Assembly: GCF_011250645.1 (NCBI RefSeq)
Contig: NZ_JAANNO010000001.1
Location: forward strand, 518,658-582,657
DNA: 64,000 nt
Direction: 5' to 3'
From: Motilibacter aurantiacus
Lineage (GTDB): Bacteria > Actinomycetota > Actinomycetes > Motilibacterales > Motilibacteraceae
Part shown: positions 6,743 through 8,652 of the stretch, one piece after another
How the letters are laid out: each line of letters starts with the position of its first letter
Numbering within the stretch: the first letter of the stretch is position 1
Made by a program: the position numbers and the translations under genes
Notes under the pieces: generated by a model
Told to the model about the DNA's origin: nothing
Seen by the model: the letters and a program-made list of their open reading frames with translations, nothing else
The model's database searches: none

Positions 6743-7243
6743 ATGCCGAAGACCATCCCCTGCCTGTGGTTCGACGGGCAGGCCGAGGACGCCGCCGAGC
6801 TCTACGTCTCGCTCTTCCCGAACTCCTCCATCACCAGGGTCACGCGCTATGGGCCGGACCAGCACGGCGCCGAGGGCGCGGTGCTGACCGTCGAGTTCAC
6901 CCTCGACGGGCAGGACTACGTCGGGCTCAACGGCGGGCCGCAGTTCCGCTTCACCGAGGCGGTCTCGTTCCAGATCTCCACCAGGGGCCAGGAGGAGACC
7001 GACCACTACTGGGACGGGTTGACCGCGCACGGCGGTGAGGAGAGCCAGTGCGGCTGGCTCAAGGACCGGTTCGGGCTCTCCTGGCAGGTCGTCCCGGCGG
7101 AGCTGATGGATCTGCTGTCCGACCCCGACCCCGGGCGCGCCAACCGCGCGACGCAGGCGATGCTGCAGATGCGCCGGATCGTGATCGCCGACGTGCGGGC
7201 AGCGGCCGACGGGGTGCCGTTCTCGACGTCAACCACTGGTTGA
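6743..7243 (+). CDS. VOC superfamily protein (PhnB / 3-demethylubiquinone-methyltransferase-like fold)
   Basis: Soluble protein of 166 aa, family annotated as PhnB-like or 3-demethylubiquinone-9 3-methyltransferase domain. Typical features are PCLWFDGQAEDAAELYVSLFPNSSI at the N-terminus, ITRVTRYGPD, GQDYVGLNGGPQF, and the C-terminal KDRFGLSWQVVPAEL. Such proteins are usually vicinal-oxygen-chelate fold dimers of unknown substrate; the methyltransferase label is historical and not supported here. The ATG is preceded by GGAAGGA. It is transcribed divergently from the metal importer. Its last codons and stop lie inside the first palindromic operator of the next gene. Confidence 0.85.
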   Translation: MPKTIPCLWFDGQAEDAAELYVSLFPNSSITRVTRYGPDQHGAEGAVLTVEFTLDGQDYVGLNGGPQFRFTEAVSFQISTRGQEETDHYWDGLTAHGGEESQCGWLKDRFGLSWQVVPAELMDLLSDPDPGRANRATQAMLQMRRIVIADVRAAADGVPFSTSTTG

Positions 7244-7244
7244 C
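7228..7244 (+). promoter_or_regulatory. Palindromic operator 1 of the HTH-Clp_N gene
   Basis: Perfect 17-bp inverted repeat GTCAACCACTGGTTGAC, i.e. GTCAAC-N5-GTTGAC. Its right half supplies a TTGAC -35-like sequence. It overlaps the 3' end and stop codon of the upstream VOC gene. It is probably bound by the downstream HTH protein itself. Confidence 0.6.
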
Positions 7245-7254
7245 GACAGCGAGG

Positions 7255-7275
7255 GCGTCAACCTACCGTTGACGC
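7255..7275 (+). promoter_or_regulatory. Palindromic operator 2, abutting the HTH-Clp_N start codon
   Basis: 21-bp inverted repeat with arms GCGTCAAC and GTTGACGC around a 5-base spacer, again GTCAAC-N5-GTTGAC. It ends on the base before the ATG. Its centre is 29 bp from that of operator 1, close to three helical turns. A TACCGT -10-like hexamer lies inside it 18 bp after the TTGACG of operator 1, implying a leaderless transcript that starts at or near the ATG. Confidence 0.6.
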
Positions 7276-8019
7276 ATGACCACACCTCTGCCGCTCGACC
7301 CGCCGGTCCGGCTCGACGAGCTGATCACCGCGATCAAGAAGGTCCACACCGACGCCCTCGACCAGCTCAGCGACGCGGTCCTGGCGGCGGACCACCTCGG
7401 TGAGCTGGCCGATCACCTCATCGGCCACTTCGTCGACCAGGCCCGGCGCTCCGGCGCCTCCTGGACCGACATCGGGCGCAGCATGGGCGTCTCGAAGCAG
7501 GCGGCGCAGAAGCGGTTCGTGCCGCGGACGCCGGCCGAGCCGTCGGCCTTGAACCCGAACGAGGGCTTCAACCGGTTCACGCCGCGGGCCCGCAACGTGA
7601 TCGCCGCCGCCCAGAACGAGGCCCGCACCGCCGGGAACGCGAGCATCACCCCGGCGCACCTCGTGCTCGGCCTGCTCACCGAGCCCGACGGGCTCGCGGT
7701 CAAGGCGCTGGCGGCGCAATCGGTCGACCCCGCTGCGGTCCGGCAGGCGGGTGCGGCCGCCCTGCCGCCGCGTACCGAGAGCGCGCCCGAGCTCGTCCCC
7801 TTCGACGCCGACGCCCGCAAGGCGCTCGAGCTGACCTTCCGCGAGGCGCTGCGCCTCGGGCACAACTACGTCGGGACCGAGCACCTGCTGCTCGCCCTGC
7901 TCGAGCAGGAGAACGGCAGCGGCGTGCTGCACGGGCTCGGCGTCGACAAGGCGGGCGTCGAGGAGTGGGTACGCGCCGCGCTCGCCACCCTGACGGGGGC
8001 GCAGCCGCCGCGGCCGTGA
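7276..8019 (+). CDS. HTH protein with Clp N-terminal (Clp_N) repeats, likely autoregulator
   Basis: 247 aa. Residues about 10-90 form a helical region with an HTH, SWTDIGRSMGVSKQAAQKRF, that resembles sigma-like DNA-binding helices. Residues about 97-245 hold two Clp_N repeats: FTPRARNVIAAAQNEAR...ITPAHLVLGLL and DADARKALELTFREAL...VGTEHLLLALL, as found at the front of ClpA/ClpC where adaptors and substrates bind. There is no AAA+ domain. The protein may sense a Clp partner or damaged protein and act as a transcription factor; that is inference. Two identical-format palindromes lie directly upstream and point to autoregulation. Its targets are not known. Confidence 0.85.
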   Translation: MTTPLPLDPPVRLDELITAIKKVHTDALDQLSDAVLAADHLGELADHLIGHFVDQARRSGASWTDIGRSMGVSKQAAQKRFVPRTPAEPSALNPNEGFNRFTPRARNVIAAAQNEARTAGNASITPAHLVLGLLTEPDGLAVKALAAQSVDPAAVRQAGAAALPPRTESAPELVPFDADARKALELTFREALRLGHNYVGTEHLLLALLEQENGSGVLHGLGVDKAGVEEWVRAALATLTGAQPPRP

Positions 8020-8127
8020 GGCACGCGACGTCCGCTGCCGCTGTCACGACACCCGGCGCCGCATGCTTCCTGGCGGGCCGTCAACCATGGGACGGCGCCC
8101 CGCGTGAGGAACGGCGAGGGGGTGCGC

Positions 8128-8652
8128 ATGGAACGGCGCTGGGACCGGCTCGACGAGTTCGCGGCGGCGCGCGGGCAAGCGCTGCTGCGCACCGCGTACG
8201 TGCTGACCGGGGACGCGCAGGCTGCGGAGGACCTCGTGCAGACCGGGCTGACGCAGGCCGCCGCCCGCTGGCACCGCATCGCCGGCGACCAGGAGGCCTA
8301 CGTCCGCAAGGTCATGTACAACGCGCACGTCTCGGCCTGGCGCAGGCTGCACGGCGCGTCGGTCCGGTCCTACGGGGACGTTCCGCCGGACGCGGCCGTG
8401 CCCGTCGCGGACGCCGAGGTGGAGGACCGTCTCGTCCTCCGGACGGCACTCGGCCGGCTCGCACCCCGGCAACGGGCGGTGCTCGTGCTGCGCTACTACG
8501 AGGACCTCACCGAGGCGCAGACGGCCGAGGTGCTCGGCTGCTCCGTCGGCTCGGTCAAGCGGACCGCGCACGTCGCCCTCAGGCGGCTCCGGGAACGGAT
8601 GCCCGAGCTGGCCGCTCTCCCCCTGGTGACCCTCGAGGAGGGCGCGCGATGA
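8128..8652 (+). CDS. ECF RNA polymerase sigma factor (SigE family)
   Basis: Sigma-70 family extracytoplasmic-function factor, 174 aa. Region 2 includes RTAYVLTGDAQAAEDLVQTGLTQAA, and region 4 includes RLAPRQRAVLVLRYYEDLTEAQTAEVLGCSVGSVKRTAHVALRRL. This is the actinobacterial SigE/M-type family without an extra C-terminal domain. ATG 8128 is preferred over an in-frame GTG at 8104 because GAGGGGG lies five bases before it. The stop overlaps the ATG of the next gene (ATGA), a membrane-anchored propeller protein, which suggests the partner controls this sigma factor from the cell surface. Confidence 0.92.
   Translation: MERRWDRLDEFAAARGQALLRTAYVLTGDAQAAEDLVQTGLTQAAARWHRIAGDQEAYVRKVMYNAHVSAWRRLHGASVRSYGDVPPDAAVPVADAEVEDRLVLRTALGRLAPRQRAVLVLRYYEDLTEAQTAEVLGCSVGSVKRTAHVALRRLRERMPELAALPLVTLEEGAR

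Follow-up and report, generated by a model that had tools for sequence, protein, structure and literature searches.

Twin GTCAAC-N5-GTTGAC operators ahead of a clpC2 orthologue in Motilibacter aurantiacus, and comparative evidence for an N-terminal helix-turn-helix as the reader of the half-site

The window analysed here is a 64,000-nucleotide stretch of the Motilibacter aurantiacus genome, within which a short intergenic region and the gene that follows it carry these features:

7228..7244, no strand: putative operator 1, GTCAACCACTGGTTGAC, an exact match conserved in 80 orthologous loci
7240..7245, + strand: predicted -35 element TTGACG, inside site 1, proposed from its position and a 17-19 bp spacing kept in 80 loci
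7257..7273, no strand: putative operator 2, GTCAACCTACCGTTGAC, an exact match conserved in orthologues
7264..7269, + strand: predicted -10 element TACCGT (TANNNT), inside site 2, its TA kept in 79 of 80 relatives
7276..8019, + strand: clpC2 orthologue of 247 aa, with an N-terminal dimerisation/helix-turn-helix (HTH) domain and two Clp_N repeats, identified from Pfam, PDB matches and 80 orthologues
7462..7518, + strand: predicted HTH, codons 63-81, with recognition helix 74-81 (KQAAQKRF), from AlphaFold2 and orthologue conservation
7567..7968, + strand: Clp_N double repeat, codons 98-231, from Pfam and from Foldseek to the ClpC2 C-terminal domain

Pfam recognises two Clp_N stretches in the 247-aa protein (PF02861, E=3.5e-27) and gives no match to an AAA+ domain, and the reading frame stops at 8019, so that the product is not a Clp/Hsp100 ATPase. 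The same search did not call the HTH. In the AlphaFold2 models helices 63-70 and 74-81 form one, with a pLDDT of about 97 over block 61-80 of the N-terminal model, and the HTH of a paralogue encoded as a separate protein passes Pfam HTH_23. The composition given by the first-pass annotation, an HTH joined to two Clp_N repeats without AAA+, is thus borne out. With phmmer the N-terminal domain matches 8ADA (the Rv2667 N-terminal domain, homologous to Rv2667 1-72) at E=7e-33, and the best PDB matches of the C-terminal domain are 9P2P, 8AD9 and 8B9O (ClpC2 C-terminal domain, E=2.5e-55 to 1.3e-45), the last two also found by Foldseek with the window Clp_N part at a TM-score to target of 0.91-0.92. 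No solved structure lies closer to the window protein than the ClpC2 entries 9p2p, 9p39 and 9p4h (E=2.5e-55). Against DNA-binding HTH structures the N-terminal domain gives weak matches, of which Fis scores best with a Z of about 5; small helical domains commonly behave in this way. Judged by sequence and predicted fold, the window protein is an orthologue of mycobacterial ClpC2 (Rv2667). The cyclomarin-contact residues F96, F172 and E181 of the M. tuberculosis protein align, in a mapping made by hand, with F98, F176 and E185 of the window protein; F176 is not invariant among orthologues (0.69).

The ORF upstream (6743-7243, Pfam 3-dmu-9_3-mt) ends inside operator 1, its TGA stop codon (7241-7243) forming part of the GTTGAC arm. 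Directly downstream of clpC2 lies a gene for an ECF-type sigma factor (8104-8652), and the larger ORF after it may encode a partner of the sigma factor.

Both palindromes match GTCAAC-N5-GTTGAC with zero mismatches, lie 29 bp apart from centre to centre, and are one pair longer in the form CGTCAAC-N5-GTTGACG (7227-7245 and 7256-7274). The first-pass annotation had described twin palindromes of identical format that cover the -35 and -10 of a leaderless promoter and of which the second abuts the ATG; this layout is confirmed and is kept in relatives, the abutment being nearly exact, with 2 bp between operator 2 and the ATG at 7276, or 1 bp if the extended form is counted. The predicted -35 and -10 are separated by an 18 bp spacer, and the -10 lies 6 bp from the ATG, which makes a leaderless clpC2 transcript likely. 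In a search of the whole genome (4.59 Mb), a check that had been proposed with the annotation, the only exact copies of the motif were the two sites of clpC2 itself, and the reversed-pattern control gave 0. With up to one mismatch, 11 further sites were found, which look scattered; the idea of a regulon for this motif was accordingly set aside. A scan for chance GTCAAC-N3..6-GTTGAC palindromes in 148 genomes showed some of them to contain many isolated matches that belong to no twin (for example N3 in G056, G072 and G141). Single sites are thus weak proof, and the argument rests on the twin layout and the gene context.

We compared 80 orthologous loci from Streptomyces, Rhodococcus, Mycobacterium, Micromonospora, Actinomadura, Saccharopolyspora, Pseudonocardia, Nocardia, Modestobacter and others. 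In 68 of them one or more exact N5 sites lie within 110 bp of the start; with up to one mismatch all 80 have a site and 74 have two. Homologues devoid of palindromes, which the first-pass annotation had named as the finding that would speak against it, were thus not encountered, and the palindromes occur upstream of clpC2 orthologues far beyond chance. The promoter geometry is equally regular: the -35/-10 spacer is 17 bp in 57 loci, 18 bp in 21 and 19 bp in 2, the -10 lies 6 bp (72 loci) or 7 bp (8 loci) from the ATG, and the TA at the -10 slot, almost universal in site 2, is found in site 1 at 1/80. Within the protein, recognition-helix residues 75-81 show no variation across 26 orthologues, while block 45-82 is the most conserved part of ClpC2 (0.96, versus 0.72 and 0.86 for the Clp_N halves), which we counted in favour of the HTH as the reader of DNA.

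The first-pass annotation knew of no characterised protein of this design; one has in fact been characterised since 2023. Taylor et al. (Commun Biol 2023, PMC10030653) reported that the mycobacterial ClpC2 operator is CGTCAAC-n5-GTTGACG, located 1-2 nt ahead of clpC2 with a second copy upstream, over the -35 and -10, and they too inferred a leaderless start. By reporter, pull-down and EMSA, purified ClpC2 was shown to bind this operator in vitro and the protein to repress its own promoter in M. smegmatis, repression being lost in a clpC2 deletion strain (PMC10030653). The self-repressor on its own twin operators that the annotation had proposed is thus established for the mycobacterial protein. 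Cyclomarin A, an antibiotic that targets ClpC1 and is a ligand of its N-domain, derepresses ClpC2, and heat is a mild inducer; both dimerisation and protection have been shown (PMC10030653). Later M. tuberculosis work found ClpC2 raised by cyclomarin only, not by ecumicin or ilamycin, and damaged protein is put forward as a signal in a later paper. The annotation had also proposed a switch operated by the Clp machinery or by damaged protein. Its passage through the Clp_N part holds in mycobacterial ClpC2, where the inducer shown is cyclomarin A and not the Clp machinery itself. As the same operator, autorepression and release by cyclomarin A are already published, the twin-operator clpC2 locus is a known system, and the window locus is an orthologue of that characterised case.

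The mycobacterial protein of M. tuberculosis and M. smegmatis shares with the window locus the architecture, length, operator, twin -35/-10 sites and leaderless start. The window locus differs in coming from another lineage and being known from its sequence, and here the base reader is argued to be the N-terminal HTH; by analogy, Motilibacter ClpC2 may be expected to behave like its mycobacterial counterpart. The N-terminal domain of ClpC1 is likewise a Clp_N double repeat that binds cyclomarin A, the double repeat being the domain for this ligand in mycobacteria (PMC10030653); unlike ClpC2, ClpC1 is part of an AAA+ unfoldase, lacks the HTH and has, in mycobacteria, little operator specificity (PMC10030653). 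The RelI antitoxin (Rv2664) family also has an HTH region related to the N-terminal domain of ClpC2 (PMC13284704), and PDB 9SDC (RelI) matches window residues 13-89. RelI differs in neutralising a RelE-type toxin, and its authors found no upstream inverted repeats and no evidence of DNA binding (PMC13284704).

A design of the same kind, encoded as separate HTH and Clp_N ORFs, is present in two further copies in the host genome:

L003 split pair, 1376-2217 (host C1, about 365.9-366.8 kb): HTH 1426-1656, Clp_N 1660-2217
L006 split pair, 1454-2100 (host C2, about 95 kb): helix ISPQAAHKK

Twin GTCAAC-N4-GTTGAC sites lie upstream of L003, and twin ATCAAC-N4-GTTGAY sites, with a changed half-site, upstream of L006. 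The split HTH protein has about 70 aa, and in most cases a separate Clp_N gene comes next. In a survey of 118 genomes of the class, 66 contain relatives of the L003 HTH, a count that includes matches to fused ClpC2 at weak E-values, and in nearly all of 30 such loci examined a Clp_N gene is close downstream. Like ClpC2, the split pairs combine a related HTH, a related Clp_N protein, twin palindromes of the same half-site and a similar promoter layout; unlike ClpC2, they use separate ORFs and half-sites 4 bp rather than 5 bp apart, and their half-site varies with the recognition helix (GTCAAC, ATCAAC, GTCAGC, GTCAGT). For the spacing we used a twin-site search anchored on GTCA alone, with the register free from N3 to N6, in place of an unanchored twin-repeat search that gave GC-rich noise in some loci. 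The result was without exception: N5 in 77/77 fused loci and N4 in 71/71 split loci, the latter set being GTCA-anchored, so that proteins with other half-sites lie outside it. The centres of the twin sites are 28-30 bp apart in the fused form and 27-29 bp in the split form. A further 39 entries have no GTCA-anchored twin, a few of them because they are fused loci or the HTH pattern was not found. Among these 39 are loci with one site only (L108, L158, L162, L164), with other half-sites (L006, L154), with a loose twin only (L151, L153), with an AGCAAC-type variant beside a VTRQAV helix and with no visible site (L163, L180, L185, L195). No published account of the split HTH and Clp_N pairs was found in the open-access literature searched; Hoi et al. 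2023 (Cell), to which PMC10864484 refers for ClpC3, may overlap.

Some small HTH genes stand apart. Those with a VTRQAV helix (L234, L239, L240, L241, L243, L250) have half-sites of AGCAAC/CGCAAC type, outside the three residue-base rules given below, and L109 combines a VTRQAV helix with a GTCAAC half-site. In L161, L166, L167, L168 and L169 small HTH genes follow twin N4 sites, and the next 900 bp or so downstream contain no match to Clp_N. In one genome, three consecutive GTCAAC-N4-GTTGAC sites (G147:C1:2227983-2228047) lie close to an HTH gene match (2228128-2228298).

Across the split loci the half-site changes with the recognition helix. The residue after the conserved glutamine (Q) goes with base 5, alanine with A in 58/59 loci and serine or threonine with G in 12/12 (Fisher 1e-12), and the residue at Q+4 goes with base 6, lysine or arginine with C in 55/58 and other residues with T or G in 12/13 (Fisher 4e-10); both Fisher values treat the loci as independent, which they are not. 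An alanine or proline at Q-1 goes with A at base 1 in 4/4 loci; the rule was drawn from L006 and L154, and L233 and L244, read afterwards, obeyed it. In a phylogeny constructed with the helix left out, base 5 matches the residue at all 74 distinct loci and has changed 4 times; the 3 supported independent pairs are all concordant at base 5, too few for significance (sign test, p=0.25). The arm that doubles as the -35, on the right of site 1, stays A in 71/71 split loci while its partner arm varies with the protein, and the constraint imposed by the polymerase can thus be separated from that imposed by the repressor. This covariation was measured within the split family, the recognition helix of ClpC2 being without variation, and it indicates that the half-site tracks the HTH, whether Clp_N is attached or not.

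These data bear on the published assignment of DNA binding. Taylor et al. crystallised N-terminal residues 4-72, which they named the dimerisation domain, and placed DNA binding in the C-terminal domain through the R185A/R189A mutant, which binds the operator more weakly in vitro and raises expression about 2-fold (PMC10030653). The window counterparts are R189 and R193, and in the model that follows from that work these would read the operator while the N-terminal domain only dimerises, cyclomarin A blocking DNA through overlapping sites. A conserved positive patch (PMC10030653) agrees with it, as do the invariance of window R189 and the near-invariance of R193 among orthologues. We nevertheless regard it as unlikely. 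The counterpart of R185 is also found in the AAA+ ClpC of the host genome (LSLREALQLGHN), so that its conservation is not specific to a role in DNA binding, yet mycobacterial ClpC1 shows little operator specificity. The same half-sites precede split HTHs encoded without a fused Clp_N, in a register that is fixed but different, and their bases follow the HTH residues. Finally, the published crystal 8ADA stops at residue 72, just short of the recognition helix (74-81), which is thus absent from it; an HTH region in ClpC2 is noted in the 2026 paper on RelS-RelI as well (PMC13284704). The split N4 sites, the covariation and the end of the crystal together place base-specific reading in the N-terminal HTH, and we infer that in ClpC2, too, the bases are read by the HTH. 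The HTH as DNA binder, as first annotated, is therefore favoured by the comparative data and stands against the published C-terminal model. The effect of R185A/R189A may then reflect non-specific contacts added by Clp_N, or a role of Clp_N in setting the geometry of the dimer, and spacings of 4 and 5 bp would fit two dimer geometries.

Binding of the palindromes by another repressor, with clpC2 following them by coincidence, is very improbable, given that purified mycobacterial ClpC2 binds the same sequence, that the deletion strain loses repression, and that the sites track the clpC2 family across actinobacteria with no other exact copies in the host genome. We give still less credence to the repeats being promoter elements (TTGAC) with chance symmetry and no regulator. 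The right arm of site 1 is indeed the -35 and site 2 does contain the -10, but conservation extends to the left arms and to both arms of site 2, for which the polymerase has no need; the spacing is class-specific, and these arms, unlike the -35 arm, covary with the HTH.

The reading that we hold with high confidence is that of a clpC2 gene under autoregulatory operators. Each palindrome would be occupied by a ClpC2 dimer, joined through the N-terminal domain, with the recognition helix of each HTH (residues 74-81) reading one GTCAAC half-site. With one dimer at either site, both the -35 and the -10 would be covered and RNA polymerase blocked, and ClpC2 would in this way repress its own leaderless promoter. 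Binding of a ClpC-type ligand by Clp_N (a cyclomarin-like peptide, possibly unfolded protein) would abolish DNA binding, upon which ClpC2 would rise sharply and act as a sponge that shields the ClpC protease.

It is also probable, with somewhat less assurance, that ClpC2 belongs, as one branch, to a larger actinobacterial family of small autorepressors of HTH type, which share a residue-base code and each act on an operator pair of their own, and that the published Clp_N site is wrong for base recognition. In this code lysine or arginine at Q-1 would specify G1 and alanine or proline A1, alanine at Q+1 would specify A5 and serine or threonine G5, and lysine or arginine at Q+4 would specify C6, with 5 bp between half-sites in the Clp_N fusion and 4 bp in the split form. 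Ligands would then have to work through the dimer of N-terminal HTHs, not by covering a DNA site in the C-terminal domain. We found no prior report of the split/fused spacing rule, the residue-base covariation or the end of the crystal before the recognition helix in the open-access literature searched.

In mycobacteria ClpC2 blunts ClpC1-targeting antibiotics, and that it can be induced is a worry for these drugs as well as for degraders. The route by which a ligand on Clp_N releases the DNA is set by the domain that binds it; our comparisons shift the DNA site to the N-terminal HTH, and the switch thereby becomes an inter-domain problem. In the split gene pairs the same sensor-repressor exists naturally in a separable form. 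The window locus thus represents an orthologue of a known system, together with a testable correction to the published ClpC2 model.
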